A stretch of 64,000 nucleotides of DNA from contig JAGWTH010000017.1 in the NCBI GenBank assembly GCA_028868995.1, positions 1-64,000 of the forward strand, given 5' to 3'. The notes under the pieces are model-generated. The model did not search any database. It saw only the letters and a list, made by a program, of their open reading frames with translations, and was not told the DNA's origin. The position numbers and the translations under genes were made by a program. This stretch comes from Burkholderiales bacterium. GTDB lineage: Bacteria > Pseudomonadota > Gammaproteobacteria > Burkholderiales > Burkholderiaceae_C. Numbering within the stretch: the first letter of the stretch is position 1; every line of letters starts with the position of its first letter. Shown piece after piece: positions 8,515-41,506 of this stretch.

Positions 8515-8582
8515 GCACAGGCTCCTTTCTTCCGGGGACTTCATGATGACCCCGAACGGTCCGCCCCGTCGCGTTGGCCCTG

Positions 8583-9017: not shown

Positions 9018-9078
9018 GGGGGCCCATTGTGGGGCGGGCCCGGAATTCCTGCACGGCGGCGGGCGCGGCCCGCGCCGC

Positions 9079-10176: not shown

Positions 10177-10222
10177 GCGGCGATTATCCCAGAGGCCGTC
10201 GCCGACCCCGGGCGGCCGGGGC

Positions 10223-10687: not shown

Positions 10688-10702
10688 GGCTGCCTCCTAG
10701 GG

Positions 10703-10726
10703 CCCGGCGTACTTTCGGGTACCGGG
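10703..10726. promoter_or_regulatory. Inverted repeat in the CBS protein/metY divergent intergenic region
   Basis: Bulged inverted repeat (CCCGGcGTAC, six-base loop, GTACCGGG) in the 93-base region shared by the divergent CBS-protein and metY start sites. It could be a regulator site or an mRNA hairpin. I see no SAM riboswitch-sized structure here, since the leader is too short. Confidence 0.3.
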
Positions 10727-10780
10727 TCGGAAGGAATATAGCCCACAATCCGCAGCAGTTCCACTGGAGGGTTTCGCCCC

Positions 10781-12076: not shown

Positions 12077-12086
12077 GGAGGCCACG

Positions 12087-12893: not shown

Positions 12894-12897
12894 CGCG

Positions 12898-14172
12898 ATG
12901 CAGGTCACGCCGCCGATGAGCCCCGGGCGCGCGCGCGAGATCGCCGCGTCCTTCGACCTGCGCGCGCTGCCGCCGGACTTCCACGCCAACCCCTACCCGG
13001 TCTACGCCGCGCTGCGCGAACAGGAGCCGGTGCGGCGCATGCCGGACGGCTCCTGGTTCCTCACCCGCCATGCCGACCTGGTGGCGGTGTACCGCGACGC
13101 GCAGGGGTTCAGCTCCGACAAGAAGGTGGAGTTCACGCCGAAATACGGCGAGGGCGCCCCGCTGCTGGAGCACCACACCACCAGCCTCGTCTTCAACGAC
13201 CCGCCGCTGCACACGCGCGTGCGCAAGCTGATCATGGGCGCCCTCACCCGCCGCGCGATCGCCGACATGGAGCCCGGCCTGGTGAAGCTGGTGGACCAGC
13301 TCCTGGACGCCATCGAAGCGAAGGGCGGCGGCGACCTGATCGAGGACTTCGCCTCGGCGATTCCCGTGGAGATCATCGGCAACCTGCTGGGCGTGCCGCA
13401 TGCCGAGCGCGGGCCGCTGCGCGGCTGGTCGCTGGCCATCCTGGGCGCGCTGGAGCCGAAGCTCACGCGCGAGCAGGAAGACCTGGGCAACCGCAGCGTG
13501 CTCGAATTTCTGGACTACCTGAAGATCCTGGTGGCCGAGCGCCGCCGGCACCCGGGCGACCCCGAGCACGACGTGCTCACGCGGCTGATCCAGGGAGAAG
13601 GCGCCGGCGAGCAGCTGACCGAGACCGAGCTGCTGCAGAACTGCATCTTCATCCTCAACGCCGGCCACGAGACCACCACCAACCTGATCGGCAATGCGCT
13701 GGTGGCGCTGCAGGAGTGGCCGGGCGAGAAGGAGCGGCTGCTGGCCGCGATCGGCCGGCGGCCGGACTGGGCGGCGCTGGAGCCGCTCATGACGCTGGCG
13801 GTCGACGAGTTCCTGCGCTTCGAGTCCTCCAACCAGCTGGGCAACCGGCGGGCGCTGCGCGCCTGCGAGGTGGGCGGCGTGGCGCTGCCCGAGGGTGCGC
13901 TGGTGACGCTGTGCATCGGCGCGGCGAACCGCGACCCGGCGCAGTTCGGCGAGGCGGAGGTGATGGACCTGCGGCGCGAAGACAACCGGCACCTGGCCTT
14001 CGGCTTCGGCATCCACCAGTGCGCGGGCCTGAGCCTGGCGCGGCTGGAGGGACGCATCGCGATCGGGCGCTTCCTGGCGCGCTTCCCGCGCTACCGGCTC
14101 ACCGAAGCGCCGACGCGCGGCGGGCGGGCGCGGTTCCGGGGGTTCCTGCGGGCGCCGTTCGCGGTGGAGTGA
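12898..14172 (+). CDS. Cytochrome P450
   Basis: A 424-residue soluble bacterial P450 monooxygenase. The I-helix reads NAGHETTTNLIGNALVAL, the K-helix ExxR is EFLR, and the heme-binding loop is FGFGIHQCAGLSLARLE with the axial Cys at about 375. There is no N-terminal anchor. No ferredoxin or ferredoxin reductase lies nearby, so redox partners come from elsewhere. It closes the metY-hydrolase-P450 run. Substrate is not deducible. Confidence 0.94.
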   Translation: MQVTPPMSPGRAREIAASFDLRALPPDFHANPYPVYAALREQEPVRRMPDGSWFLTRHADLVAVYRDAQGFSSDKKVEFTPKYGEGAPLLEHHTTSLVFNDPPLHTRVRKLIMGALTRRAIADMEPGLVKLVDQLLDAIEAKGGGDLIEDFASAIPVEIIGNLLGVPHAERGPLRGWSLAILGALEPKLTREQEDLGNRSVLEFLDYLKILVAERRRHPGDPEHDVLTRLIQGEGAGEQLTETELLQNCIFILNAGHETTTNLIGNALVALQEWPGEKERLLAAIGRRPDWAALEPLMTLAVDEFLRFESSNQLGNRRALRACEVGGVALPEGALVTLCIGAANRDPAQFGEAEVMDLRREDNRHLAFGFGIHQCAGLSLARLEGRIAIGRFLARFPRYRLTEAPTRGGRARFRGFLRAPFAVE

Positions 14173-14198
14173 GCGGGGAGCCGGGGTTCGCCTGCGGC

Positions 14199-15401
14199 TC
14201 AGAGCACGTCGCTCAGGTACAGCGACGACAGCCGCCCGCTCTCCCACATCTTCGCGGTGGCCACGTTCACGGGCAGCAGCAGCGCCCGCATCAGCGGCTC
14301 CAGCGAGGTGGAGCGCACGTCGGCCAGCATCACGTAGCGCGTGCCGTCCTGGTCCTCCAGCTCGTTGAGGCGGCCGATCCAGTCCAGCTGCACCAGGGCC
14401 TGCAGCACCGGCTCGAGCTGCAGCACGTCGACCTGCATGCGCGCGCCCAGCTCGGTCGCCGTGAGACCGTGCCGGGCGGTGGGTCCCGCCCGCTTCAGCA
14501 GCGCCAGCACCTCCAGCGCCAGCTGGAACTGCCAGCCGTGCCCGCCGGGCAGCCGGCGCGGGCCGGCCAGCAGCGCCGGCAGGTAGGCCGCGATCACCGC
14601 GCCCAGCAGCACGATCACCCAGGTGATGTAGATCCAGACCAGCAGGATGGGCACGGTGGCGAAGGCGCCGTACACCATCGAGTAGGTGGGCACCTTGGCG
14701 ATGTACCAGGCGAGCATCCGCTTGGCGAGCTCCAGTCCCACCGCGGCGAACAGGCCGCCGGCCAGCGCATGGGGGCGCTTCACCGGGGTGTTGGGCACGT
14801 AGCGGTACAGCGCCATGAAGGCGCCCACCAACAGCGCGAACTCCACCAGGTCGATCAGCAGGCCCAGCGTGCCGGGCAGCCGGGTCACCAGGCCGCGGCC
14901 GGCCGAGATCACGTACGAGGTGGTGCCCAGGCTGGCGGCCAGCAGCAGCGGGCCCAGCGTGAGCGTGGCCCAGTAGATCATCACGCGCTGGCCCAGCGGG
15001 CGCGGGCGGCGCACGCGCCAGATGTTGTTCAGCGTGCGGTCGATGGTCAGCACCAGGGCGGTGGCGCTCACCACCAGCGCCGCCAGGCCGACGCCGCCCA
15101 GGCGGCTCGCCTTGCCGGCGAACTGCGTGAGGTAGCCCAGCACCTGGCGCGAGATCGCCTCGGGCACCAGGCTCTGCACCAGCCAGGCCTGCAGGTTGGC
15201 CTGCAGCTTGCCGAAGATGGGGAAGGCCGTGAAGATCGCCAGGGCCACCGTGAAGAACGGCACCAGGGCGATGGTGGTGGTGAAGGTCAGGCTGCTGGCG
15301 GTGAGGCCCAGGCGGTCCTCGCGGAAGCGTTCGCGCAGCGTCGCCAGCGTCGGCACCCAGGGGAAGCGGGCGAGGTCGGCGAGGAACTGGCGCGGATTCA
15401 T
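14199..15401 (-). CDS. YihY/BrkB-family inner-membrane protein
   Basis: A 400-residue membrane protein of the YihY family (once called RNase BN, now not considered an RNase). Starts MNPRQFLADLARFPWVPTLA; about six hydrophobic helices lie within residues 30-280, including LTASSLTFTTTIALVPFFTV and ITWVIVLLGAVIAAYLPALL. The C-terminal third is soluble and winged-helix-like (LTATELGARMQVDVLQLEPV). Function in bacteria is not established. It is convergent with the P450 and divergent from the DUF2069 gene. Confidence 0.9.
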   Translation of the reverse strand: MNPRQFLADLARFPWVPTLATLRERFREDRLGLTASSLTFTTTIALVPFFTVALAIFTAFPIFGKLQANLQAWLVQSLVPEAISRQVLGYLTQFAGKASRLGGVGLAALVVSATALVLTIDRTLNNIWRVRRPRPLGQRVMIYWATLTLGPLLLAASLGTTSYVISAGRGLVTRLPGTLGLLIDLVEFALLVGAFMALYRYVPNTPVKRPHALAGGLFAAVGLELAKRMLAWYIAKVPTYSMVYGAFATVPILLVWIYITWVIVLLGAVIAAYLPALLAGPRRLPGGHGWQFQLALEVLALLKRAGPTARHGLTATELGARMQVDVLQLEPVLQALVQLDWIGRLNELEDQDGTRYVMLADVRSTSLEPLMRALLLPVNVATAKMWESGRLSSLYLSDVL

Positions 15402-15425
15402 TGCTCGCTATGATGCCATTGCCCC

Positions 15426-15779
15426 ATGAAAAGCCCCGCCGTCCCCGTCCCCCCCGCCGTCGAAGCCACCCGCTGGATCGCCGTGGCCAGCCTGCTCGGG
15501 CTGATCGTCCTGGGCCTCGTGTGGGAGCTGTGGCTGCCCGCGCGTCCCAGCCCCTGGGCGGTGAAGGTGCTGCCCCTGTGCATCCCCGTCGCCGGGCTGC
15601 TCAAGCGCCGCATGTACACCTATCGCTGGGTCAGCCTGCTGGTGTGGCCCTATTTCATGGAAGGCGTGGTCCGCGCGAACGAGGGCCTGGCCCCGGCGCT
15701 GGAGATCGCGCTGTCCCTCAGCCTCTTCCTCGCCTGCGGGCTGCACGTGCGCCTGCGCCTGCGCCACTCACCGAAATGA
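15426..15779 (+). CDS. DUF2069 membrane protein
   Basis: A 117-residue inner-membrane protein matching DUF2069. Hydrophobic helices are visible at WIAVASLLGLIVLGLVWELW, WAVKVLPLCIPVAGLL and LEIALSLSLFLACGLHV, with the conserved KRRMYTYRWVSLLVWPYF segment. Its stop overlaps the start of the FAD-dependent dehydrogenase gene by 4 bases (ATGA), so the two are translationally coupled. Confidence 0.85.
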   Translation: MKSPAVPVPPAVEATRWIAVASLLGLIVLGLVWELWLPARPSPWAVKVLPLCIPVAGLLKRRMYTYRWVSLLVWPYFMEGVVRANEGLAPALEIALSLSLFLACGLHVRLRLRHSPK

Positions 15780-17194
15780 ACGCCCTGATCCCGCACCTGC
15801 GCGCCGCTGTCGGCGCCGCCAACGTCCTCACCGAAGGCGACCTCAGTGCCTGGGAGCAGGACTGGCGCAAGCGCTCGCGCGGCAAGGCGCTGGCCGTGGT
15901 GCGGCCCGGCTCCACCGACGAAGTGGCGGCGGTCGTACGCGCCTGCGCCGCCGCCGGCACGCCCATCGTGCCCCAGGGCGGCAACACCGGCCTGGTGGTG
16001 GGCGGCGTGCCGGATGCCTCGGGCCGCGAGGTGGTCCTGAGCCTCACGCGCATGAACAAGGTCCGCGCCATCGACCCGGCCAACCTCGCCATGACGGTGG
16101 ACGCCGGCTGCGTGCTGCAGAACCTGCAGCTGGCCGCCGAGGAGGCCGGCCTGCTGTTCCCCCTGAGCCTGGCCGCCGAGGGCAGCTGCACCATCGGCGG
16201 CAACCTCGCCACCAACGCCGGCGGCACCCAGGTGCTGCGCTACGGCAACACGCGCGAGCTGTGCCTGGGCCTGGAGGTGGTCACGGCGCAGGGCGAGGTC
16301 TGGAACGGCCTGACCGGCCTGCGCAAGGACAACACCGGCTACGACCTGCGCGACCTGTTCATCGGCAGCGAGGGCACGCTGGGCGTGATCACCGGCGCCA
16401 CCCTGAAGCTCTACCCCCTGCCCGCGGCCACGCTCACCGCCTGGGCCGCGGTGCCCTCGCTGGAGGCGGCCGTGACGCTGCTGGGGCTGGCGCGCAGGCA
16501 CCTGGGCGCGGGCCTCACCGGCTTCGAGGTGATGGGGCAGTTCGCCCTGGGCCTGGCCGACAAGCACTACCCCCACCTGCGTGTGCCCCTGTTCCGCGAC
16601 CATCCCTATTGCGTGCTGCTGGAGAACGCCGACCAGGAATCCGAAAGCCATGCCCGCGGCCAGTTCGAGCGGCTGCTGGAAGCCGCGCTGGAGGACGGCT
16701 GCGCGGCCGACGCCGTGGTGGCCGAGAACATCGGCCAGGCACGGCAGCTGTGGCACATCCGCGAGTCGATCCCGCTGGCCCAGGCCGAGGAAGGCCTGAA
16801 CATCAAGCACGACATCTCGCTGCCGGTGTCGCGCATCCCGGCCTTCTGCGCCGAGACCGACGCCCTGCTGCGCCAGGAGATCGCGGGCGTGCGGCTGGTC
16901 AACTTCGGCCACCTGGGCGACGGCAACCTGCACTACAACGTGCAGGCGCCCGAAGGCGGCGACATGAAGGCCTTCCTCGACGCCAACGAGGAGCGGGTGA
17001 ACAAGCTGGTGTACGACCAGGTCAAGCGCTTCGACGGCTCGATCTCGGCGGAGCACGGCATCGGCGCGCTCAAGGTGGGCAAGCTGCCCGAGTACAAGTC
17101 GCCGGTGGCGATCGCGATGATGCGCTCGCTGAAGCTGGCGCTGGACCCGCAGGGGCTGCTGAATCCGGGGCGGGTGGTGCCGGGCGGCCATTGA
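15776..17194 (+). CDS. FAD-binding 2-hydroxyacid dehydrogenase (D2HGDH/D-lactate type)
   Basis: A 472-residue flavoprotein of the GlcD/D-2-hydroxyglutarate dehydrogenase group. The PCMH FAD domain has VPQGGNTGLVVGGVPDASG (about 62-80) and ATNAGGTQVLRYGNTRELCL; the C-terminal oxidase domain has LVNFGHLGDGNLHYNVQAPE (metal/substrate His region) and ends with SAEHGIGALKVGKLPEYKSP and LKLALDPQGLLNPGRV. Likely substrate is D-2-hydroxyglutarate, D-lactate or a related 2-hydroxyacid; the sequence does not discriminate. It overlaps DUF2069 by 4 bases. Confidence 0.9.
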   Translation: MNALIPHLRAAVGAANVLTEGDLSAWEQDWRKRSRGKALAVVRPGSTDEVAAVVRACAAAGTPIVPQGGNTGLVVGGVPDASGREVVLSLTRMNKVRAIDPANLAMTVDAGCVLQNLQLAAEEAGLLFPLSLAAEGSCTIGGNLATNAGGTQVLRYGNTRELCLGLEVVTAQGEVWNGLTGLRKDNTGYDLRDLFIGSEGTLGVITGATLKLYPLPAATLTAWAAVPSLEAAVTLLGLARRHLGAGLTGFEVMGQFALGLADKHYPHLRVPLFRDHPYCVLLENADQESESHARGQFERLLEAALEDGCAADAVVAENIGQARQLWHIRESIPLAQAEEGLNIKHDISLPVSRIPAFCAETDALLRQEIAGVRLVNFGHLGDGNLHYNVQAPEGGDMKAFLDANEERVNKLVYDQVKRFDGSISAEHGIGALKVGKLPEYKSPVAIAMMRSLKLALDPQGLLNPGRVVPGGH

Positions 17195-28992: not shown

Positions 28993-29778
28993 TCAGATCC
29001 CGTCGGAGTGCGACTTCTCCAGTTCGTCCGACAGGATCTGGAACGACAGCCAACCGAAATCGGGCGAACCCAGGGTCCGGGCCAGGCCACGCGCCGCTTC
29101 CGGTGGCCAGATTTCGGGGCGGCCTGCCGCTTCTGCGGCCAACTGGACCTGGCACGCTCTTTCCATGCAGACGAACCACCAGGCGGCCTCGTCGACGGTG
29201 CGACCGGTGCTGAACAGTCCGTGACCGACATGAATGGCGGTCTTGCACGGTCCGAATGCATCGGCGAAGCGTGCGGCGTCCTCCCTGGTCAATGCGATAC
29301 GAGGTTCGCGGATGAGGGCCTGCTGTTCGAACAACACGCAAGCGTCCTGCGAGATCGGATCGAGCAACCGACCGAGGCTGGCCCATGCCTTGCCATGCGG
29401 CGTGTGGGCATGGCAGACCGCGGAAACCTCCGGGCGGGCCTCGTGGATCGCCGAGTGCAGCAGCAGCCCCACGGGGTTGACAGGCCTCGTTCCTATGAGC
29501 ACCTGGCCGCGATGATCGACACACAGCAGGTCGGAAGGCGTGATGCGCGAGAAGGACACGCCGACCGGGTTCACCCACAGCAGCTCGGGATGCTCGGGAT
29601 CGCGCACCGTCACGTGCCCGAGCAGCCCCTCGGCGAAACCCAGTTTCCCGAAAACGCGACAGACCGCCACCAGCCTCGCCCGCAGGTGCGTTCGCTCCTC
29701 TTCCATCGTCGCGAACTTCGGCGGAGTGCGCGTCGAAAACTGGCTTGCAGCCCGCTTCAGTGAGTCAGTGTCTGACAT
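28993..29778 (-). CDS. Class II aldolase/adducin-family protein
   Basis: A 261-residue protein. The ATG at 29778 follows GGAGA at six bases. The aldolase II domain includes LGFAEGLLGHVTVRDPEHPE, NPVGVSFSRITPSDLLCVD, the metal-site HEARPEVSAVCHAHTPHG (HxH), and AIHVGHGLFSTGRTVDEAAW (third His). This family catalyses Zn-dependent retro-aldol or decarboxylation reactions on hydroxyacids and sugars; substrate unknown. It is downstream of a GFA gene on the same strand with a 71-base gap. Confidence 0.9.
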   Translation of the reverse strand: MSDTDSLKRAASQFSTRTPPKFATMEEERTHLRARLVAVCRVFGKLGFAEGLLGHVTVRDPEHPELLWVNPVGVSFSRITPSDLLCVDHRGQVLIGTRPVNPVGLLLHSAIHEARPEVSAVCHAHTPHGKAWASLGRLLDPISQDACVLFEQQALIREPRIALTREDAARFADAFGPCKTAIHVGHGLFSTGRTVDEAAWWFVCMERACQVQLAAEAAGRPEIWPPEAARGLARTLGSPDFGWLSFQILSDELEKSHSDGI

Positions 29779-31329: not shown

Positions 31330-32316
31330 TCAGCGATTGACCGCCTGCATGGCTGCCTGGGGATAGCGCTCGCCGCGGGCAGCACCAGGCGGCAGCGCGC
31401 TCTCGAGGGCTTGAATTTCGTCCGTCCGCAGCTGTATCTGCACCGCTGCCAGGTTCTGCTGGAGCCGGTCGATGCTGCGCGTGCCTGGAATGGGCACCAT
31501 GTCGCTGCCACGCCCGAGCAGCCAGGCCAGCGCGAGCTGGGCCGGCGTGCAGCCTCGCGCCGCAGCGAGTTGACGCACCGAATCGGCCAGGCGCAGGTTG
31601 GCTGCCAGGGCGTCGCCCTGGAATCGGGGCGTGTTGCGCCGGTAGTCCGCCGGATGGAGGTCTTCCGCGCTTCGGATTGCGCCGGTCAGGAAACCGCGCC
31701 CCAGGGGGCTGTAGGCGACGAACCCGATGCCCAGCTCGCGCGTCGTGGCCAGGATTTCCGGCTCCACATCCCGGGTCCACAGCGAGTATTCGGTCTGCAG
31801 GGCCGCAATGGGGTGGACGGCATGGGCACGCCGGATGGTCGCGGGCGCCGCCTCCGACAGTCCCAGCCAGCGAACCTTGCCGCTGCGCACCAGGTCGGCC
31901 ATCGCACCCACCGTCTCCTCGATCGGCACGCGAGAGTCGACGCGGTGCTGGTAGTAGAGGTCGATCTCGTCGACGCCGAGCCGTCGCAAGCTCGCGTCGC
32001 AAGCCTGCTTGACGTACTCGGGACGCCCATCGACGCCGAGGAAGCTGCCGCCGGGACCGCGCACGTTGCCGAACTTGGTGGCCAGCACCACGCGATCGCG
32101 CCTGCCACGCAGCGCACGGCCCACCAACTCCTCGTTGTGCCCGCTGCCATACATGTCGGCGGTGTCCAGGAAATTCACGCCCAGCTCGATGGCGCGGTGG
32201 ATCACCGAGATCGACGCGGCCTCGTCCGCCGGCCCGTAGAACTCCGACATGCCCATGCAGCCCAGGCCGATCGCGCTGACCTGCGGGCCATTGTGGCCAA
32301 GACGACGCTGCTGCAA
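31330..32316 (-). CDS. Aldo/keto reductase
   Basis: A 328-residue NADPH-dependent oxidoreductase of the AKR superfamily (AKR13/YakC-like). The TTG at 32316 is chosen because AGGAG lies seven bases upstream and the protein then opens [20 protein letters not shown]; an in-frame ATG ten codons upstream at 32346 lacks a ribosome site. The catalytic tetrad is visible: Asp and Tyr in [18 protein letters not shown], Lys in [12 protein letters not shown], His in [11 protein letters not shown]. The C-terminal cofactor site is [17 protein letters not shown]. Substrate unknown. Confidence 0.9.
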
Positions 32317-32448
32317 CGCTGCTCTCCTTCCAGATGAAGCCCGCATGCTAGGGCAATTCCAGGAAGGATGCAGGCCGGCAAAGGGTCACCGCGCCGCAGA
32401 CCGGGCGAACAGGCGCCCCGCCAGGCTATCCCCGTGCGCAGGCGCCTG

Positions 32449-33342
32449 TCAGAGCCGGCCTTCCCCGCTGGCGAACAAGGCATCCAGCTTGCGCTCGAAT
32501 TCGTGGTAACCGATGGCCTGGTAGAGCTCCTCGCGCGTCTGCATCGTCCCGACCATCGCCGCCTGCGTCCCGTCGCGGCGAATCGTCCGGTAGACCGTCT
32601 CGGCAGCACGGTTCATGGCGCGGAACGCGCTGAGCGGGTACAGCGCCATGGCCACGCCCGCCGCCGCAAGCTCGGAGACGGTGAACAGGGGCGTCCTGCC
32701 GAACTCCGTGATATTGGCCAGGATGGGCACGCCCAGGCTGGAGGCAAACCGGCGGTAGGTCTCGAGCTCGGAAGCCGCCTCCACGAAAATCCCGTCGGCA
32801 CCGGCTTCGACCATCCGAGCGCAGCGCTCCAGGGCCGCGTCCACCCCCTCGCCGGCGATGGCGTCCGTGCGCCCGATCAGGTAGAAGCTCTCGTCGGTGC
32901 GCGCATCGACCGCGGCCTTGATGCGGTCCACCATCTCCTGGACCGGCACGATTTCCTTGCCGGGACGGTGTCCGCAGCGCTTGGCACCGACCTGGTCCTC
33001 GATGTGGCAGGCCGCCGCACCGGCCTGGATCAGGCTGCGCACCGTGCGCGCGATGTTGAATGCGCTGGGACCAAAGCCGGTGTCGATATCGACCAGCAAC
33101 GGCGTTTCGCAGACCGCGGTGATCCGCCGCACGTCGACCAGGACGTCCTCCAGCGTGCTGATGCCCAGGTCGGGCAGGCCCAGCGATCCGGCGGCGACGC
33201 CGCCGCCGGACAGGTAGATGGCACGATAGCCCGCACCGCGCGCCAGCAGCGCGTGGTGGGCATTGATCGTCCCGACGATCTGCAGGGGCTGTTCGTCCCG
33301 CAGCGCCCGGCGAAATCGCTGACCCGGTGTCAGATGCTCCAT
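32449..33342 (-). CDS. prpB: 2-methylisocitrate lyase-like protein (PrpB)
   Basis: A 297-residue member of the isocitrate lyase/PEP mutase superfamily, closest by motif to PrpB, which splits 2-methylisocitrate to pyruvate and succinate. The active-site loop is [12 protein letters not shown] (Cys at about 123); Mg-binding [15 protein letters not shown] and [10 protein letters not shown] are present. PrpC/PrpD are absent here. It is the last gene of an eight-gene transport/catabolism operon, 12 bases after the LeuD-like gene, so its natural substrate may be another 2-alkyl malate or tricarboxylate rather than the usual propionate-cycle intermediate. Confidence 0.88.
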
Positions 33343-33354
33343 GTCGTGGCCATT

Positions 33355-33981
33355 TCAATCCATCCAGATCCAGGGTCGCATCGCCCGATCACGCTCCTGC
33401 CATTCGGCGATCCGAGGCAGCATGGTGCGGGTCGAGTCGATCGCATCGAGTCCTTGAAGCAGGGCCTGGCGGCGCCGCGGATCGATGTGGAACGCCGCTT
33501 GCCACTGTCCCGGCCATTGGACCACGCCATTTTCCAGATCGACGACGAGTTGCACGGGCTGCCCGCGCCGCCGGCTTTGCTCCAGGCGATCGAGCAGCCA
33601 CTCCACCTGGTCCGGGGGAAGCTGGATCGGCAGCAGCCCGTTCTGGTAGCAGTTGTTGCGGAAGATATCGCCATAGGAAGGGGCGATCAGGCAACCGATA
33701 CCCAGCCCCTGCAGCGCCCACACGGCATGCTCGCGCGAGGAGCCGCAGGCGAAATTGGGGCCCGTCACCAGGATGCTGGCTTCCCGCCAGCCGGCCTGGT
33801 TGAGGATGAAGCCGGGATTCTCCGAGCCGTCCGCCAGGAACCGAAGCGGCTCCAGCGCCCACCGGCCCAGATGCTCCCGCGGGCATTGCGCCAGCTTCTC
33901 GATCCGGATGATGACGTCGGTGTCCACGTTGGCCAGCGGCAGGGGCGCGGCCACCCCGGTGATCGTGCGCACCGGCTTCAT
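33355..33981 (-). CDS. leuD: LeuD-like small subunit of a 3-isopropylmalate dehydratase-type hydratase
   Basis: A 208-residue swivel-domain subunit that pairs with the LeuC-like protein encoded just upstream. Family signatures: NVDTDVIIRIEKLAQ, ILVTGPNFACGSSREHAVWA, IAPSYGDIFRNNCYQNGLLP. The ATG at 33981 overlaps the LeuC-like stop by 4 bases. True LeuD has the same length. Because no leuB/leuA is nearby and the neighbours are two retro-aldol lyases and an ABC importer, the complex may hydrate a substituted maleate (as dimethylmaleate hydratase does) rather than serve leucine synthesis. Confidence 0.88.
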   Translation of the reverse strand: MKPVRTITGVAAPLPLANVDTDVIIRIEKLAQCPREHLGRWALEPLRFLADGSENPGFILNQAGWREASILVTGPNFACGSSREHAVWALQGLGIGCLIAPSYGDIFRNNCYQNGLLPIQLPPDQVEWLLDRLEQSRRRGQPVQLVVDLENGVVQWPGQWQAAFHIDPRRRQALLQGLDAIDSTRTMLPRIAEWQERDRAMRPWIWMD

Positions 33982-35408
33982 GCGACCCGCCCGCCGTCGA
34001 CCCGGTCCACGATGGCACCACGGACCGCGCAGGCCGCGGCGACCGCCGGACTCGCGAGGTGCGTGCGGGCTCCCGGCCCCTGCCTTCCCACGAAGTTGCG
34101 ATTGGACGTGGAGACGCAACGCTCCCCAGGCGCTACCGTCTCTCCGTTGGCCCCCACGCACAGGGAGCATCCAGGACGGCGCCACTCGAATCCCGCGGCG
34201 GCGAAGTCCCGGTCCAGCCCCTCGGCCTCGGCGACTCGCCGGACCTCCTCGGACCCGGGAACGACCCAGGCCGTCACGTGGGCGGCGACCCGGCGTCCGC
34301 GCACCATGGCGGCGGCCTGCCGGAGGTCCTCGATGCGGCCGTTGGTGCAGGACCCGATGAATACGCGGTCCACCCGGGTGCCCGCGATGGGCTGCCCGGG
34401 CCGCAGGTCCATGTAGGCCAGCGCCTGCGCGATCGCCCCTGCCGCTGCCGGATCGGACGCCCGCAGGGGATCCGGGACGTGCCCACCCAGCCCGATGGCC
34501 TGCTCGGGACTCGTTCCCCAGGTGATTTGCGGCTGGATGGCGCTGGCATCGATCGCCTCTTCACGATCGAAACGCGCTTCGGGGTCGCTTCGCAGGCTTC
34601 GCCAGGCGTCCACCGCCCGCTGCCAGTCCGCCCCCTTCGGCGCGTACGGTCGCCCCGCGAGCCATCCGAAGGTGACCTCATCGGGCGCGATCATGCCCAT
34701 GCGGGCGCCCAGCTCGATGGTCATGTTGCACAGCGTCAGCCGTCCGGCCATGTCCAGGGCCTCCACGACCGGCCCCGCATATTCCACGGCATGGCCCGTC
34801 CCGGCGGAGGTCCCCAGCTTCGCAATGATGGCGAGCGCCAGGTCCTTGGCGCCCACGCCGGGCTGCAGCCGCCCGGTGATCGTGATGCGCATGCGCAGCG
34901 GACGCCTTTGCACGATGGTCTGCGTGGCCAGCACGTGCGTGATCTCGCTCGTTCCCGTGCCCCAGGCCAGGGCCCCGAGTGCGCCATGCGTGCTGGTGTG
35001 GCTGTCGCCGCAGACCACCAGGGAACCCGGCAGGGTCAGGCCGAGCTCCGGACCCATCACGTGGACGATGCCGTGACCGGGCTGGTCGCGCTCGAAGATG
35101 CGGATGCCGCGCTTGCGGCTGCCCTGCTCCAGCGCATCCACCAGGGCTTCGGCCCACGCATTCTCGCGGCCGGTTCGGTCGGGCCGGGACGAGACGACAT
35201 GGTCCGCCGTGGCGAAGGTCAGCGCGGGGCTGTGGACCGCGATGCCGCGGCCGTCCAGCTCCGCGTACGCCGGTCCGCCGACCAGGTCGTGCACGAGGTG
35301 CCGGTCCACGTGCAGCAGCGCCGTGTCATCGCCCAGCTGCGCCACGACATGGCTGTCCCACAGCTTGTCGAAGAGGGTCCGGGCGCCCTGCGCAGCGACC
35401 GCGTTCAT
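33978..35408 (-). CDS. leuC: LeuC-like large subunit of a 3-isopropylmalate dehydratase-type hydratase
   Basis: A 476-residue aconitase-superfamily catalytic subunit. The 4Fe-4S ligands are C354 (IGSCTNGRIEDL) and C414/C417 (PGCSLCVGANGE). CGDSHTSTHGALGALAWGTG is the aconitase signature. Compared with true LeuC, the substrate-region DHNV is DHVV here (TADHVVSSRPDR). Its ATG overlaps the end of the upstream lyase gene by 4 bases and its own stop overlaps leuD. Placement in an operon with two isocitrate-lyase-family genes and an importer favours a catabolic hydratase; leucine biosynthesis cannot be excluded from sequence alone. Confidence 0.88.
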   Translation of the reverse strand: MNAVAAQGARTLFDKLWDSHVVAQLGDDTALLHVDRHLVHDLVGGPAYAELDGRGIAVHSPALTFATADHVVSSRPDRTGRENAWAEALVDALEQGSRKRGIRIFERDQPGHGIVHVMGPELGLTLPGSLVVCGDSHTSTHGALGALAWGTGTSEITHVLATQTIVQRRPLRMRITITGRLQPGVGAKDLALAIIAKLGTSAGTGHAVEYAGPVVEALDMAGRLTLCNMTIELGARMGMIAPDEVTFGWLAGRPYAPKGADWQRAVDAWRSLRSDPEARFDREEAIDASAIQPQITWGTSPEQAIGLGGHVPDPLRASDPAAAGAIAQALAYMDLRPGQPIAGTRVDRVFIGSCTNGRIEDLRQAAAMVRGRRVAAHVTAWVVPGSEEVRRVAEAEGLDRDFAAAGFEWRRPGCSLCVGANGETVAPGERCVSTSNRNFVGRQGPGARTHLASPAVAAACAVRGAIVDRVDGGRVA

Positions 35409-36280
35409 GCGTTCGCCGGCTCCACGTAGCGCTTCTCGAACTCCCACACCTCGGGAAATCCGACCAGTTCGTGCAGCTGCGCCATGGTGAAGGCAGGAAC
35501 CGGCGAACCGGCCGTGCTGCCATGTTCCTTCAGCCAGGCGAAGTTGCGCTCCAGGGCCGCGCACACCACGCCCATGCCGGCCGAAGGGTAGATCGCGATG
35601 TCGAAGCCCCAGGCCTGCAGGTCCTGCCGGGGAATCTCGGGCGATTTGCCCGTGGGCACCATGTTCGCGAGCAGCCATGCATCGATGGAATCGCCCACCC
35701 GCCTGAACTCGTCCCCCGACTCCGGCGCCTCGATGAACACGATGTCCGCCCCGGCGGCGGCGAAGGCCTGGCCGCGCCGGATCGCCTCGTCCAGGCCCAG
35801 GGCGGTGCGCGAATCCGTCCGGGCGATGATCAGCGTGTCGTCATGCCGGCGGGCGTGGACGGCCACCTCGATGCGGCGCACCGCGTCGACCATCGGGACC
35901 ACCCTGCGGTTGGGCGTGTGCCCGCACTTCTTGGGCATCTCCTGGTCCTCGATCTGGATGGCCTGCACGCCCGCGGCCTCGTAGCCGCGCACCGTCTCGC
36001 GCACATTGAGCAGGCCGCCGAATCCCGTGTCGGCATCGGCGATCAGCGGCGTGGAGGTGCCTTCGGCGATCGTGCGCGCGCGACCGACCATGTCGGTGTA
36101 GGTGGCCAGGCCCGCGTCGGGACGACCGAGATGGGAGCCGGAGATGCCATAGCCGGTCATGTACAGGGCCTTGAATCCCATCCGGTCGGCGATCCGGGCC
36201 GAGAACATCTCGAAGACGCCGGGAGCGAGGACGAATTCCCCGCGGGTCAGCAAGTCCTTCAGGCGCGTGGTGGAAGTCAT
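35405..36280 (-). CDS. Isocitrate lyase/PEP mutase-family lyase (2,3-dimethylmalate lyase-like)
   Basis: A 291-residue TIM-barrel enzyme of the ICL/PEP mutase superfamily. Mg-site DADTGFGG (82-89) and QIEDQEMPKKCGH with the catalytic loop KKCGH at 117-121 are present; FIEAPESGDEF lies later. The KKCGH loop with catalytic Cys marks it as a C-C lyase rather than a phosphonate enzyme. It is a second, divergent lyase in the same operon as prpB, about 45 bases after the permease and overlapping the LeuC-like gene by 4 bases. Dimethylmalate lyase or another 2-alkylmalate lyase is the best guess; an oxaloacetate decarboxylase-like activity is an alternative. Confidence 0.86.
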   Translation of the reverse strand: MTSTTRLKDLLTRGEFVLAPGVFEMFSARIADRMGFKALYMTGYGISGSHLGRPDAGLATYTDMVGRARTIAEGTSTPLIADADTGFGGLLNVRETVRGYEAAGVQAIQIEDQEMPKKCGHTPNRRVVPMVDAVRRIEVAVHARRHDDTLIIARTDSRTALGLDEAIRRGQAFAAAGADIVFIEAPESGDEFRRVGDSIDAWLLANMVPTGKSPEIPRQDLQAWGFDIAIYPSAGMGVVCAALERNFAWLKEHGSTAGSPVPAFTMAQLHELVGFPEVWEFEKRYVEPANA

Positions 36281-36325
36281 GTGAAGATCCTTTCAACGAA
36301 TGCGAGCGATCGGGACGGCCGTCCA

Positions 36326-37114
36326 TCAGCCGGCGAATCGCCCGTGGACACGGCGCTCCACGGCCAGCAGCAGCCAGCTCGCCACGGTCGCGAGAAAAAC
36401 GAGCAGCAGCGCCAGCGCGAGGATGACGTCGGTGTTGTTGCTCTCCATGGCCTTGATCAGCAGGTAGCCGATACCGCGCTGGGACGCGAACATCTCGCCG
36501 ATGAGCGTGCCCAGCAGCGTCAGGGAGAATCCGAAGCGGAAACCGGTGACGATCTCCGGCAGGCTCGCCGGCACCAGCACGTGGGCAAACATCTGCGCGG
36601 GACCCAGGCGCATCGCCCGGGCCGCGCGCACGTACACCTGCGGGATGTTGCGAACGGCGTTCATGGTGAACAGCACCACCGGGATGATGCCGTGCATGGT
36701 GCCGAAGGCGACCTTGGCCGACATGCCCAGGCCGAAGAGCAGCAGCACGATCGGGTAGAGGGTGATCTTCGGGATCGAATACAGACCCACCAGCAGCGGC
36801 TCCGCGACCTCGCCCGAGAGCCGGTGGGCCCCCAGCGCCACGCCCAGGCCCAGTCCTCCAGCCAGAGAAATCACCAGCGCCAGGGCGAATGCGCGGCCGG
36901 TTTCCATGGCGTGGCCGGCAAAGTCGGGTGCCAGCACCAGATGCGCGAGCTTGCGTACAGTGGCCGTCGGCGAGGTGAGGACCTGCGCTCCCGCGGCCCA
37001 CGACAGCAGCTGCCATGCCGCAAGCAAGATCGCGAGCAGCAGCAGCCGGTCCTGCAGGACCTGCCGCGAGCCCGAGCCAGTCCCCGGCAACGCACCCATC
37101 GCGGGAACTGACAT
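36326..37114 (-). CDS. ABC transporter permease (nitrate/sulfonate/taurine type)
   Basis: A 262-residue inner-membrane permease of the SsuC/TauC family. Multiple hydrophobic helices (about six) with the EAA-type cytoplasmic loop VRAARAMRLGPAQMFAHVLV followed by PASLPEIVTGFRFG. The ATG at 37114 overlaps the stop of the other permease by one base (TGATG). Together with the second permease it forms the heterodimeric channel of the importer. Substrate unknown. Confidence 0.92.
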   Translation of the reverse strand: MSVPAMGALPGTGSGSRQVLQDRLLLLAILLAAWQLLSWAAGAQVLTSPTATVRKLAHLVLAPDFAGHAMETGRAFALALVISLAGGLGLGVALGAHRLSGEVAEPLLVGLYSIPKITLYPIVLLLFGLGMSAKVAFGTMHGIIPVVLFTMNAVRNIPQVYVRAARAMRLGPAQMFAHVLVPASLPEIVTGFRFGFSLTLLGTLIGEMFASQRGIGYLLIKAMESNNTDVILALALLLVFLATVASWLLLAVERRVHGRFAG

Positions 37115-37875
37115 CAGCGGCCTCCGCGCTTGAGGTACATGCGTCGCTCCCAGGTGTGGAGAACCATGTTCAACCCACCCACGAATCCGAGCAGCAGCAC
37201 CATGAGTCCGTACATGGTGGAATTGTCGAAGCTGTTGTAGGCGAAGGCGATGTCGAATCCGAAGCCGGCGCCGCTGAGCACGAACTCACCGGCGATCACC
37301 CCGATGAACGAATAGGCGATCGACAACTTCAAGCCTGTGAACAGGTAAGGCGCGCACGAGGGCAGGACGACGTGGACCATCTCCTGCAGGGGCGACAGGC
37401 GCAATGCGCGCGCGGTGCGCCGCAGTGCCAGCGGAACACGCTCGAAACCCTGGAGGGTGCTCATCGCCATGGCGACGAAGGAGAAGATGAACCCGATGGC
37501 CACCAGGGGCCAGCGGTTCAGTCCGAACAGTACGATGAACAGCGGATAGAAGACGAAGGTCGGCACCGCGTAGTAGCTGGCAAGCAGCGGGTCGGCCGCC
37601 ACGCGCAGGCGCGGCATGCGGTACAGGAGCCAGCCGATGCCGAAGCCCACGATCACGGCGAGCCCGCAGGCGATGGCCACGTTCGTGAGCGTCAGGAGAA
37701 TGTGCGCGGTGTACTGGCCGGAGGCGAGCAGGCGCAACGCGCCCCGCAGCATCTGCGACGGCGCGATCACCGCCACCGGATCGATGCGACCGGCCCGGCA
37801 GGCGGCCTCGAGTGCGGCCAGCGCAGCGAGGACCACGGCCAGGCGAACCCAGCCGGCACGGCTGACGAAGCTCAT
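37114..37875 (-). CDS. ABC transporter permease (nitrate/sulfonate/taurine type)
   Basis: A 253-residue permease homologous to its neighbour. The EAA loop reads LRRTARALRLSPLQEMVHVV, then LPSCAPYLFTGLKLSIAYSF. The ATG at 37875 overlaps the ATPase stop by 4 bases (ATGA). The hydrophobic pattern gives about six membrane segments. Being one of two distinct permease genes points to a heterodimeric channel. Confidence 0.92.
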   Translation of the reverse strand: MSFVSRAGWVRLAVVLAALAALEAACRAGRIDPVAVIAPSQMLRGALRLLASGQYTAHILLTLTNVAIACGLAVIVGFGIGWLLYRMPRLRVAADPLLASYYAVPTFVFYPLFIVLFGLNRWPLVAIGFIFSFVAMAMSTLQGFERVPLALRRTARALRLSPLQEMVHVVLPSCAPYLFTGLKLSIAYSFIGVIAGEFVLSGAGFGFDIAFAYNSFDNSTMYGLMVLLLGFVGGLNMVLHTWERRMYLKRGGR

Positions 37876-38750
37876 GCCATCCCCGCGGACTGGCCGTAGG
37901 CCAGGGACTTCTGCGATTCGGTGCGCAGGGTGGACCACAGGCGCGCCGTGATGCGGCCGAAGCGCTCGTCGGTGACGATGTTGCTGTCCCGCTCGCGTGG
38001 CCAGCCGGTGGTCACCACGTCGAGGAACACCCCGGGGCGCGCCGACATCACGCCGACGCGATCCGACAGCATGGCCGCCTCGTCCAGCGCGTGGGTGATC
38101 AACAGCACGGTGGCCCCCGTGTCCCGCCAGAGCTTGAGCAGTTCGTCTCCCATGAGCAGGCGCGTCTGCTGGTCGAGCGCGCCGAACGGTTCGTCGAGCA
38201 GCAGCAGGCGCGGGCGCATGACCAGGGTGCGGGCAATGCACAGGCGCTGGCGCATGCCCCCCGACAGCTGGGCGGGGTAGTGCCCGGCAAATCCGCGCAA
38301 GCCCATGAACGACAGCGCATGGTCCACCCGCGAACGGATCTCGGCGCCGTCCATGCCAGCCCTGCGCAGCCCGAACGCGGCGTTCTCGTACACCGTCAGC
38401 CAGGGAAAGCTCGCGTCCTGCTGGAACACGATTCCCACGCCGTCCGGCACCGTTGCGTCGACCGGCCGTCCTTCGAATTCCACCGTGCCGCCCGACGGCC
38501 GGGCGAGCCCGGCAAGGACGTCCAGCAACGTCGACTTGCCGCAGCCGGAGGGCCCCACCACCGAGAAGAACTCGCCGCGGCGCAGGTCCAGGTCGATCGG
38601 GCCAAGTGCGTGCACCGGCTGCGCACCCGCCGCCCCGGGGTAGACACGGGTGACGCCGCGCAGGCTCGCGTGGGCCGGCTGCGCCATGCCTGTCGGGACG
38701 ACATCGCCTGCGGCCTCGTGCAGGCGCACCGGGGCGGGATCCGCGACCAT
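37872..38750 (-). CDS. ABC transporter ATP-binding protein (SsuB/TauB type)
   Basis: A 292-residue ATPase. Walker A VVGPSGCGKSTLLDVLAG, Q-loop FQQDASFPW, signature AQLSGGMRQRLCIARTLV, Walker B LLLLDEPFGALD, H-loop LLITHALDEA. An N-terminal extension of about 25 residues precedes the domain. The ATG at 38750 (a GTG one codon earlier is also possible) overlaps the stop of the binding-protein gene by one base, and its own stop overlaps the permease start. Confidence 0.93.
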   Translation of the reverse strand: MVADPAPVRLHEAAGDVVPTGMAQPAHASLRGVTRVYPGAAGAQPVHALGPIDLDLRRGEFFSVVGPSGCGKSTLLDVLAGLARPSGGTVEFEGRPVDATVPDGVGIVFQQDASFPWLTVYENAAFGLRRAGMDGAEIRSRVDHALSFMGLRGFAGHYPAQLSGGMRQRLCIARTLVMRPRLLLLDEPFGALDQQTRLLMGDELLKLWRDTGATVLLITHALDEAAMLSDRVGVMSARPGVFLDVVTTGWPRERDSNIVTDERFGRITARLWSTLRTESQKSLAYGQSAGMA

Positions 38751-39724
38751 CACTTGCTGCGCAGGTCGGCCGGCAGGTAGCTTTCGTCGACGACGGTCTT
38801 CCAGTCGAAGGGCCCCTCGGGCACCGCCTTCACCATCTGGAGTCCCTTGAGCATGAAGGCCATCCCCTCGTAGTCGAATCCGCCGCGGCTCCAGTAGACC
38901 CCCTTGGCCGCCAGCACGCTGTCGATGGCGGCTTTCGCCTGTTCGGTCGGGATCTTGTATTCACGCGCCATGATGGGGGCGGCCTCGTCCGGATGGGCCT
39001 GGATGAACTCCACCGCCTTGCGGCGGGCCGAGATGATGCCGCGGATCACGTCGGGGTGCTTCTGCAGGTAGTCCGTGCGGACGATGCCGACCGTCTGGGT
39101 CACCCGCGGGGCGATGTCGGAGGACCACCAGGCCGCGCGGAAGTTGTTCTTCTCCTTGCTCCACACGGGCTCGGTCACGTACGTCATGTCCACGCCCCCC
39201 TCGCGCAAGGCCGTGAGGCCCGAGCCGATGCCGCCCACCGACTTGCGCTCGACCGAGCTTTCGAGCTTCTCGTCCTTGAGCATGACCGAGGTGATGATGT
39301 CCGTCACCGACTTGGGGCTGGAGTAGCCGAGCTTCTTGCCCTTGAGGTCCGCGAACTTCTTGATGCTGGCATCGTCCTTGCGCGTGATCCACACCTGGTC
39401 GGCCACGGACAGCACGCCGCCGTGGACGATGGTGAGCTTCACGCCCTGCTGGATGGCCGCGATGGCCGCCGGGAGCGCGACCTCGCCGTAGGGAATCTCG
39501 GAGGCCAGTGCGTTGCGGATCGTGGTCCCGCCGCCCGCGGAGGTGATGAACCCCGTGACGTCGATGCCGGCATCCGACTTGAACCAGCCCTTCTCGCGGG
39601 CGATCGCGAAGGGCACGCCGTACATGCCCGTTCCGAAGTGCGTGACGGTCAGATCCACCGCCAGGGCCGAAGTCGCCGCGAGTATCCCGGTTGCCGCCAC
39701 CGCGGCGCGAAAGAGTCGAAACAT
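38750..39724 (-). CDS. ABC transporter substrate-binding protein (NMT1/SsuA-like)
   Basis: A 324-residue periplasmic receptor. Signal peptide at residues 1-22 (MFRLFRAAVAATGILAATSA, then LAVDL). Mature family motifs: THFGTGMYGVPFAIAREKGW and LKGKKLGYSSPKSVTDIITS, typical of nitrate/sulfonate/taurine/NMT1-type receptors. AGGAG precedes the ATG. It is the first gene of the eight-gene operon, reading from the palindrome-rich region shared with gntR. Ligand unknown; a carboxylate is suggested by the downstream enzymes. Confidence 0.92.
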   Translation of the reverse strand: MFRLFRAAVAATGILAATSALAVDLTVTHFGTGMYGVPFAIAREKGWFKSDAGIDVTGFITSAGGGTTIRNALASEIPYGEVALPAAIAAIQQGVKLTIVHGGVLSVADQVWITRKDDASIKKFADLKGKKLGYSSPKSVTDIITSVMLKDEKLESSVERKSVGGIGSGLTALREGGVDMTYVTEPVWSKEKNNFRAAWWSSDIAPRVTQTVGIVRTDYLQKHPDVIRGIISARRKAVEFIQAHPDEAAPIMAREYKIPTEQAKAAIDSVLAAKGVYWSRGGFDYEGMAFMLKGLQMVKAVPEGPFDWKTVVDESYLPADLRSK

Positions 39725-39786
39725 GCCAGTCTCCTATTCGAATGGGGATTGCCTTGAACCGAGGCAAGTCGGTGCATCAATCTCTT

Positions 39787-39798
39787 GTTGTGCACAAC
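39787..39798. promoter_or_regulatory. Perfect palindrome GTTGTGCACAAC, candidate GntR operator
   Basis: A 12-base perfect palindrome 63 bases upstream of the substrate-binding protein start. TTGTGCACAA-type sites are typical of FCD-class GntR operators, and the gntR gene lies on the other side of the same intergenic region. A second copy of the core is at 39874-39881. Confidence 0.6.
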
Positions 39799-39873
39799 GG
39801 CAAACTTTATGCGGGCCGATCCGTGAAGGATCCCAGGGATTTCCCGTGGATGGCCCAGACGAACAGCATTTGG

Positions 39874-39881
39874 TGTGCACA
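39874..39881. promoter_or_regulatory. TGTGCACA palindrome core, second candidate GntR operator
   Basis: Eight-base palindromic core TGTGCACA within GGTGTGCACAAT, 86 bases (centre to centre) from the first copy and about 58 bases upstream of the gntR ATG. Same core as the 39787-39798 site. Placement near gntR suits autoregulation. Confidence 0.5.
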
Positions 39882-39884
39882 ATC

Positions 39885-39912
39885 GGGCCTCCGCGATGAT
39901 TCGCGGAGGCCC
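39885..39912. repeat. Perfect 12-bp inverted repeat with 4-base loop upstream of gntR
   Basis: Arms GGGCCTCCGCGA and TCGCGGAGGCCC are exactly complementary, separated by TGAT. It starts four bases after the second TGTGCACA core and ends 26 bases before the gntR ATG, so it lies in the probable 5' leader. No T-tract follows on either strand, arguing against a standard intrinsic terminator. It may be an RNA hairpin or a second regulator site. Confidence 0.7.
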
Positions 39913-39938
39913 AAGAACGCTGAAGGGGAAGGAGCTGC

Positions 39939-40610
39939 ATGGAGCACAAGCAGGCCAACGCCGCGGACCAGGCCTATGCCTACGTGCGCGAGCGCGTGAT
40001 TTCGGGAGACTTCGCCGCGGGCACGCGGCTGACGGAATGGCAGATCGCGGATGCGCTGGGCACCTCGCGCACGCCGGTGCGAGAGGCCATGCGCCGGCTG
40101 GTGGGCGACGGGTTCCTGCAGTTCCGCCCGAATGTCGGCACCTTCGTGGGCTCCTACTCCACCAAGGAGATCAGCGAGCTGTTCGAGCTGAGGGCGTTGC
40201 TCGAGTCGGAAGTCGCCGGCGCCGCCGCCCTGCGGATTTCCGGCGAGCAACTCGAGCAGCTGACCGTGCTGCAGCAGCGCATCGAGGAACGCGGGTTGGA
40301 CCTCGGCCGCGACAACCTCGAGCGCATCGCAGGCCTCAATCGCGAGTTCCACCGCCTGATCGCGCAGGCCAGCGACAGTCCTCGAACGGTCGGCATGCTG
40401 ACCAACGCCATCGAAGCCCCGGTGGTCCAGCAGACATTTCGCCGCTACAGCACCGCACAGCTGCAGCGCAGCTTCCACCAGCACCGTGAATTGATCGATG
40501 CCTTCCAGTCGCGCGACCGCTCCTGGGCACGCGATGCCATGAGCTGCCACGTACGGGCAGCACGCTTTGCCATGCTCAACGCGTCGAGTGAACAGGCGGG
40601 GGGATCATGA
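39939..40610 (+). CDS. GntR-family (FCD domain) transcriptional regulator
   Basis: A 223-residue regulator with an N-terminal winged helix (about 10-75: AYAYVRERVISGDFAAGTRL, then TEWQIADALGTSRTPVREAM) and a C-terminal FCD ligand-binding domain (ELFELRALLESEVAGAAALR). GGAAGGAG precedes the ATG. It is divergent from the transport/catabolic operon and overlaps the downstream hydrolase by 4 bases, making it the likely specific regulator of both. FCD regulators typically respond to small organic acids. Confidence 0.93.
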   Translation: MEHKQANAADQAYAYVRERVISGDFAAGTRLTEWQIADALGTSRTPVREAMRRLVGDGFLQFRPNVGTFVGSYSTKEISELFELRALLESEVAGAAALRISGEQLEQLTVLQQRIEERGLDLGRDNLERIAGLNREFHRLIAQASDSPRTVGMLTNAIEAPVVQQTFRRYSTAQLQRSFHQHRELIDAFQSRDRSWARDAMSCHVRAARFAMLNASSEQAGGS

Positions 40611-41506
40611 ACGCCATCCGCCGCGTGCGCGCCGGCGTGCTGGAAGTGGCGTACCACGAGTGCGGCCCCGCTGCGGGTCCGCCGGTCATCCTGCTGCACG
40701 GCTTCCCCTACGACATCCACAGCTACGAGGGTGTCGCCCCCCTGCTGGCGCAGCAGGGATGCCGGGTGCTGGTGCCCTACCTGCGGGGCTACGGCCCCAC
40801 GCGCTTCCTGTCGGACCGCACGCCGCGTTCGGGCGAGCAGGCCGTGCTCGGCGCGGACCTGGTCGCCTTCATGGATGCGCTGGCCCTGCCGCGGGCCGTG
40901 CTGGCGGGCTACGACTGGGGCGGTCGTGCAGCCTGCGTGGTGGCGGCCCTCTGGCCGCGGCGCTGCACGGGCCTGGTCTCCGTCAACAGCTACAACATCC
41001 AGGACATCGCTCGCGCCATGGAGCCGGACCTGCCGGCCAACGAGAAGGTCTACTGGTACCAGTACTACTTCCACCTGGAGCGCGGCCGGCTCGGGCTGCA
41101 GCGTGACCGGCGCGGCCTCTGCCGGCTGCTGTGGCAGGACTGGTCGCCCACCTGGAAATTCGACGACGCCACTTTCGAACGCAGCGCCGCGGCCTTCGAC
41201 AACCCGGACTTCGTTGACGTGGTGATCCACTCCTATCGCCACCGCTACGGGCTGGTCCCCGGCGACCCGGACGTGGCGGCGATCGAGGCCCGGCTGGCAG
41301 CGCAGCCCCCCATCACCGTGCCTGCCGTCACCCTCGACGGCGCCGATGACGGCGTGCGTGCGGCGCAGCAGGCAGCGGCGCACGCACGCCACTTCGTCGG
41401 CGCTCGCGAGCACCAGGTCGTGCCCGGTGTCGGCCACAACCTGCCGCAGGAGTGGCCCCAGGGATTCGCAGGCGCGGTCCTCAAGCTGGTGCGAGGCGGA
41501 GGCTGA
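40607..41506 (+). CDS. Alpha/beta hydrolase, epoxide hydrolase/dehalogenase-like
   Basis: A 299-residue cytoplasmic enzyme. Oxyanion-region VILLHGFPYDIHSYEG, nucleophile elbow AGYDWGGRAA (Asp nucleophile, as in epoxide hydrolases and haloalkane dehalogenases), catalytic His in VVPGVGHNLPQEWPQ. The ATG overlaps the gntR stop by 4 bases, so it is co-expressed with the regulator and probably acts in the same pathway, perhaps freeing the carboxylate from a lactone, ester, epoxide or halide precursor. Substrate not known. Confidence 0.88.
   Translation: MNAIRRVRAGVLEVAYHECGPAAGPPVILLHGFPYDIHSYEGVAPLLAQQGCRVLVPYLRGYGPTRFLSDRTPRSGEQAVLGADLVAFMDALALPRAVLAGYDWGGRAACVVAALWPRRCTGLVSVNSYNIQDIARAMEPDLPANEKVYWYQYYFHLERGRLGLQRDRRGLCRLLWQDWSPTWKFDDATFERSAAAFDNPDFVDVVIHSYRHRYGLVPGDPDVAAIEARLAAQPPITVPAVTLDGADDGVRAAQQAAAHARHFVGAREHQVVPGVGHNLPQEWPQGFAGAVLKLVRGGG

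Follow-up and report, generated by a model that had tools for sequence, protein, structure and literature searches.

The stretch of DNA analysed here, a 64,000 nt window (positions 1 to 64,000 of contig JAGWTH010000017.1, assembly GCA_028868995.1) from a member of the Burkholderiales, contains eight minus-strand genes running from position 39724 down to 32449, which together encode an ATP-binding cassette (ABC) importer, a LeuCD-like hydratase and two lyases of the isocitrate lyase (ICL) superfamily. The genes are packed as a tight operon in the order binding protein (38750–39724), ATPase (37872–38753), permease 1 (37114–37875), permease 2 (36326–37114), the lyase LY1 (35405–36280), LeuC (33978–35408), LeuD (33355–33981) and PrpB (32449–33342), joined by overlaps of 1–4 nt except for gaps of 45 nt between permease 2 and LY1 and of 12 nt between LeuD and PrpB, and the open reading frames confirmed the coordinates and junctions given in the initial annotation. 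This operon is more than a chance arrangement, given that the gene order recurs in other genomes. On the plus strand, divergent from the operon, lie a gene for a GntR/FCD transcription factor (39939–40610) and, overlapping it by 4 nt, a gene for an alpha/beta hydrolase (40607–41506).

Protein families of the operon and the divergent genes were assigned using Pfam and NCBIfam profiles, which agreed with the families proposed earlier, including those of the importer and of the regulator (PF00392 and PF07729). The binding protein matched the NMT1 domain (PF09084, 83.4 bits), the ATPase matched PF00005 and both permeases matched the binding-protein-dependent transport domain PF00528, as expected of importers of the SsuA/NMT1 type, which take up nitrate, sulfonates or taurine. 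No NCBIfam model listed for the four importer proteins (in the case of the ATPase, the top 25 of 188) exceeded its cut-off, including SsuA_fam for the binding protein (87.7 bits, cut-off 163.5) and ntrCD, the best match of the ATPase (201.3 bits), and in this the window proteins differ from the known importers. LeuC scored 530.7 bits with PF00330 and was above the cut-offs of PRK12466 (701.4 bits) and TIGR00170 (612.9 bits), and LeuD was above that of TIGR00171 (163.7 bits). LY1 belongs to the ICL/phosphoenolpyruvate (PEP) mutase superfamily (PF13714, 147.9 bits), and PrpB to the 2-methylisocitrate lyase family (NF008455, 506.1 bits; TIGR02317, 403.9 bits).

A canonical leuC-leuD-leuB set was found on contig C49 of the same genome (787.1, 269.2 and 492.4 bits, all above cut-off), and the LeuCD of the operon is therefore a second copy and not the sole isopropylmalate isomerase of the organism. 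Within an alignment of 76 LeuD sequences, 72 were readable at the column that begins the loop after DTDxII (four gapped rows were excluded from the count), and this column held Arg in 27 and Pro in 45 sequences, with no third residue. The window LeuD has Arg here (in DTDVIIRIEKL), with RIEK replacing P-x-x, whereas the canonical copy of its own genome (L008) has Pro. A lyase of the ICL family lay within 3.5 kb of 26 of the 27 Arg-type genes (window included), compared with 7 of the 45 Pro-type genes, a lyase being scored when a called protein matched LY1 or PrpB by BLAST over half of its length, so that distant lyases may escape. The lone Arg-type row without a lyase was from a Methylobacterium plasmid (L105, 9995–13154), where the LeuCD pair has a LeuB homologue behind it (423.8 bits, above cut-off). 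When solved LeuD proteins are aligned with it, the loop column appears to us to coincide with the substrate-recognition region of the Arabidopsis isopropylmalate isomerase small subunit. Substrate preference of that subunit is set by a region of five residues in a flexible loop, according to a published study (PMC7308503). An AlphaFold2 model of the window LeuD was confident (mean predicted local distance difference test score, pLDDT, 94.7), with isopropylmalate isomerase small subunits as the nearest solved structures.

The same division was seen in a tree of 80 LeuC sequences, in which the window LeuC fell in a clade of 27 (support 100/98), comprising 26 rows with Arg-type LeuD partners and L044. 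Lyase genes lay within 4 kb of 25 of the 27 members of this clade, compared with 5 of the 53 LeuC genes outside it, and three of these five form its sister group. Genes of the relatives were called with a simple codon-usage caller; locus L104 was included in the LeuD count and not in the tree, as its called LeuC frame has 393 aa and the tree admitted those of >400 aa, and the LeuD of L149, which reads IIRIERC, belongs to a locus included in neither.

Comparison of genome neighbourhoods, proposed in the initial annotation, showed lyase and LeuCD genes together across genera, and in one further genome PrpB follows them as it does in the window. The host is Ramlibacter-like. The best LeuC match among the named genomes (73% identity) was from a Ramlibacter metagenome-assembled genome (L022), in which GntR, importer, LY1, LeuC and LeuD genes are arranged as in the window, with a convergent PrpB gene at the end. 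Genome G056 (L127) has the same genes in window order, without PrpB. In a further genome of the genus (G012) the importer adjoins a short-chain dehydrogenase/reductase gene on one contig (L126), and another contig (L149) carries a TctC-like gene followed by LY1-LeuC-LeuD-PrpB in window order; the enzyme core therefore keeps its order while the transporter gene differs. Paraburkholderia (including P. xenovorans LB400, L079) and Caballeronia have importer and LeuCD genes followed by a different lyase of the ICL family, and LY1 also precedes LeuC in five of these loci (L040, L042, L056, L079 and L081). On Azospirillum plasmid p3 the order is lyase-LeuC-LeuD-importer-LY1, with a LeuD of the Pro type, and the clusters of Comamonadaceae and their neighbours variously add TctC proteins, PrpF, a YrdC-like protein and an acyl-CoA ligase.

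Some of these neighbourhoods contain further genes of interest. The YrdC-like protein and the CoA ligase (each a cluster of six) accompany LeuCD in Comamonadaceae and neighbours, as at L028 (12081–14503), where the ligase, at 763 of 822 bits, comes near the model for 3-(methylthio)propionyl-CoA ligase. A Roseomonas plasmid (L107, 6186–8879) has an LY1-type lyase (60% identity) behind the large and small subunits of an annotated aconitase/3-isopropylmalate dehydratase-family enzyme, and LY1 relatives therefore accompany more than one type of hydratase. The genome under study itself has a second hydratase-lyase module on contig C57 (L009, 3889–9319), with a HacA-type large subunit (411 bits) and a LeuD/DmdB-type small subunit (158 bits), both above cut-off, alongside a PrpB-like lyase, an allantoinase-like amidohydrolase, a flavin adenine dinucleotide (FAD) enzyme near flavocytochrome c/TcuA, and ABC genes that are Liv-like by eye; this module could be a route for cyclic imides or hydantoins.

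Both lyases of the operon keep the catalytic-loop Cys, LY1 in EDQEMPKKCGH and PrpB in KRCGH, as noted initially, and the LY1 loop is conserved in relatives. PrpB exceeded the cut-offs of both methylisocitrate lyase models and LY1 of neither (253.2 bits with the prpB model, cut-off 354.4); among solved chains, LY1 scored higher with those labelled carboxyphosphoenolpyruvate phosphorylmutase (190 bits) and methylisocitrate lyase (181.5 bits) than with 2,3-dimethylmalate lyase (171 bits). PrpB is a feature shared with the 2-methylcitrate cycle, which uses PrpC, PrpD or AcnD-PrpF, an aconitase and PrpB. The operon differs from this cycle in using LeuCD as hydratase and in lacking any PrpD- or PrpF-family match near PrpB, and the cycle is disfavoured since no PrpC above cut-off was found in the genome, where the best match reached 318.6 of the 421.3 bits required by TIGR01800 (cit_synth_II); a divergent PrpC may have escaped. 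The PrpD family was matched only on contig C80 and the PrpF family twice, on C22 and C28, and within the window LeuC was the sole aconitase-family match. Of the genes that the initial annotation had reported as missing from the window, prpC and prpD were indeed without a match in these own-genome searches; no window-wide search covered leuA or leuB.

PrpB was matched at E ≤1e-100 in 10 of 59 genomes of the genus, seven of which reached ≥72% identity, and all four genomes with the importer binding protein fall among these seven (hypergeometric p 8e-5, uncorrected for kinship). The citrate synthase of the genome gave no BLAST match to the called proteins around the other PrpB genes (seven stretches of 10–18 kb). 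More than one catabolic cluster of the genus appears to make use of PrpB, because at L162 (genome G041, 5457–15955) it is paired with PrpF (517.6 bits, above cut-off), an AcnA-type aconitase and other catabolic genes, namely a 2-hydroxyacid dehydrogenase, CoxG, a PuuE-like deacetylase and subunits of the xanthine dehydrogenase type. The L162 cluster resembles a pathway for N-heterocycles with PrpB as its last step. Another PrpB gene, at L161 (genome G056, 8262–15045), is found with an Asp/Glu-racemase-family protein, MmgE/PrpD, a TcuA-like FAD enzyme and proteins that are TctC-like by eye.

The 214 bp divergent promoter region between the operon and the gntR gene holds two predicted operators, the perfect palindrome TTGTGCACAA (39788–39797) and, 85 bp from it, GTGTGCACAA (39873–39882). 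The same region contains the pair TTGTACACA and TTGTGCACA in L022, and TTGTGCACA twice in L127, where the GntR/FCD protein is likewise divergent and 77–79% identical to that of the window. Paired TTGT(G/A)CACA-type sites were thus present in three of three Ramlibacter loci with this regulator, at spacings of 85, 85 and 86 bp. The 3.76 Mb genome holds two exact copies of TTGTGCACAA, compared with one of the reversed control pattern; the second copy of TTGTGCACAA (contig C21, 29584–29593) lies within a gene call that is uncertain, and a gene TctC-like by eye is located downstream of it. The case for these sites as predicted operators is one of position and conservation and not of count, and scans for promoters and terminators gave nothing exceeding chance.

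The importer has a sporadic distribution. Of the 60 genomes of the genus that were searched (own genome included), three besides the own genome encode its binding protein at 86–88% identity, and in a family sample of 250 genomes, at E ≤1e-60, the two matches were the genome itself and one at 38% identity. As guides to a ligand, the solved relatives of the binding protein are weak and diverse (3qsl, THI5/THI13, SsuA, taurine), and AlphaFold2 modelled this protein poorly (mean pLDDT 41.4). The alpha/beta hydrolase belongs with the epoxide hydrolases (5bov, 303.7 bits), and tblastn (E ≤1e-5) found no homologue in 168 loci, save that of the genome itself (L110). It is probably not part of the operon core, judged from this pattern of occurrence, and we rejected it as a core pathway step. 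A short way downstream of the operon lie an aldo-keto reductase-like gene (31333–32346, minus strand, below cut-offs) and a class II aldolase/adducin-family gene (28996–29778, minus strand, 308.3 bits, above cut-off), and for neither of these neighbours is a link to the operon apparent.

Taken together, these features favour, with somewhat better than even confidence, a substrate-inducible catabolic operon for the import, LeuCD-dependent hydration and ICL-superfamily lyase cleavage of a branched acid. The NMT1/SsuA-type importer would take up a small branched di- or tricarboxylate, and LeuCD, an aconitase-superfamily enzyme with a rebuilt loop (RIE-R/K for P-x-x), would hydrate or isomerise a substituted cis-butenedioate to substituted malates, in which LY1 and PrpB may then cut a C-C bond to give an alpha-keto acid (pyruvate or glyoxylate) and a second acid. 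The GntR/FCD protein may act as a repressor that binds two TTGTGCACA-type sites at a spacing of 85 bp and leaves them in the presence of the substrate or a product. The catabolic cassette proposed in the initial annotation is hence retained as the best reading for import, hydration and retro-aldol cleavage, and abandoned for the release step assigned to the hydrolase. Our tentative candidate for the substrate class is a tricarboxylate with a methyl branch, like 2-methylaconitate, 2-methylcitrate or 2-methylisocitrate, because PrpB accompanies the set and no methylcitrate synthase was found; from 2-methylaconitate, PrpB chemistry would yield pyruvate and succinate.

Several observations weigh against this catabolic reading or limit its reach. 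The LeuC and LeuD proteins still pass the generic leuC and leuD models (612.9 bits for a cut-off of 560.25, and 163.7 bits for a cut-off of 116.25). The second lyase of the relatives differs (34–37% identical to LY1 or PrpB) and some relatives show a single lyase, so that 2-methylisocitrate need not be a common intermediate, and related LeuCD pairs accompany an acyl-CoA ligase or a LeuB homologue, so that substrates may differ between lineages. The PrpB gene of G056 sits on a different contig amid other catabolic genes and not beside LY1-LeuC-LeuD. The search for Arg-type LeuCD covered just three further genomes of the genus, and the co-occurrence of PrpB has therefore been stated with the importer. 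The association of lyases with the LeuC clade (Fisher p 1e-13) is inflated, as are p-values for these rows generally, by the kinship of genomes that are not independent, and the homologues are a capped sample ranked by similarity of LeuC, the top 80 of at least 536 being taken, and were supplemented with hand-picked plasmid and genus loci. As for the regulatory sites, the three copies of TTGTGCACAA in the window at ≤1 mismatch are weak by themselves, this count being matched in 7 of 100 shuffles, and the site was not found in nine other loci scanned (both loci of G012 and seven from other genera). The two G012 stretches also lack a called match to this GntR protein.

The retention of two lyases beside one hydratase could, more speculatively, have a chemical origin. 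An aconitase-type enzyme can place the hydroxyl on either carbon of a disubstituted maleate, and an unsymmetrical substrate would thus give two regio-isomeric malates, each drained by its own ICL-family lyase to an alpha-keto acid and an acid, which would explain the two lyases in several clusters. PrpB might then be the terminal lyase of interchangeable hydratase-lyase cassettes outside the methylcitrate cycle, with LeuCD, AcnA-like or MmgE/PrpD-type enzymes as hydratases, and the RIE-type LeuCD a new family of catabolic hydratases that currently carries a leucine biosynthesis annotation.

The pathway that comes closest in logic is the end of nicotinate fermentation in Eubacterium barkeri, where 2,3-dimethylmaleate hydratase (DmdAB) and 2,3-dimethylmalate lyase act in succession. 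There too a two-subunit hydratase of the aconitase superfamily feeds an ICL-superfamily lyase with a catalytic Cys loop, and an aerobic counterpart would hydrate a dialkylmaleate (e.g. dimethylmaleate or 2-ethyl-3-methylmaleate) with LeuCD and cleave the product to pyruvate and a fatty acid. The reaction logic is identical, and related clusters contain isomerases of the PrpF family, along with an acyl-CoA ligase by which the acid set free could be activated. The window LeuD, however, scored only 57.4 bits with the LeuD/DmdB model TIGR02087 (cut-off 108.95), a model that the small subunit of the C57 module fits better (158 bits); the solved dimethylmalate lyase is not the closest to LY1; and the operon has no isomerase of the 3-methylitaconate (PrpF) type, while adding an importer, a GntR regulator and a second lyase. 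The initial annotation, which saw exactly the E. barkeri pairing here, was therefore too strong, and we consider such a counterpart rather unlikely. Because LeuD fails the LeuD/DmdB model, the operon is not assigned to this pathway, which serves as an analogue and not as a family assignment. In keeping with the initial annotation, which knew of none, no description of a system of this full composition was found among open-access papers, judged from titles and the openings of abstracts and with few subscription papers covered, and the main texts of two random barcode transposon-site sequencing papers on related hosts (PMC12543098 and PMC9007349) do not contain the terms 'isopropylmalate' or 'isocitrate lyase'.

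Plain scavenging of a tricarboxylate such as aconitate, with LeuCD forming isocitrate and a lyase releasing glyoxylate and succinate, is improbable. It would fit the tripartite-tricarboxylate-type (TctC-like) binding proteins that replace the ABC importer in related clusters, and the basic residues added by the rebuilt loop could hold a third carboxylate. PrpB prefers 2-methylisocitrate, however, and a second aconitate set would be redundant, since the genome has two more aconitase-family genes on C76 (907 and 771 aa, AcnA- and AcnB-like by size) and, on C20, a 464 aa frame with partial prpB-model matches that may be an isocitrate lyase.

A spare isopropylmalate isomerase for leucine synthesis, placed beside unrelated genes by chance, is less probable still. 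The passing of both generic models and the LeuB homologue behind the related Arg-type pair of L105 are in its favour, but it is disfavoured by the canonical leuCDB set on C49, by the changed loop of LeuD (RIE-R/K for P-x-x) and by the company of lyase and importer genes. A phosphonate biosynthesis cluster resembling that for pantaphos, which also couples a PEP mutase relative with LeuCD-like proteins, is scarcely credible. In its favour, LY1 is a member of the PEP mutase/ICL superfamily, phnR_burk is matched by the GntR protein (95.9 bits, below the cut-off of 271.5) and published papers deal with phosphonate clusters in Pantoea and actinomycetes, yet both lyases carry the K(K/R)CGH loop, both fall below the PEP mutase cut-off of 319.55 bits (LY1 106.0, PrpB 113.7) and the gene set is one of importer and lyases.

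Automatic names such as LeuC, LeuD and methylisocitrate lyase suggest leucine synthesis or propionate use for these genes. Within our sample, one loop residue together with gene company sets a catabolic-looking LeuCD clade apart, which gives an easy way to re-annotate such proteins and brings to light a putative hydratase-lyase route for branched acids in soil beta-proteobacteria.

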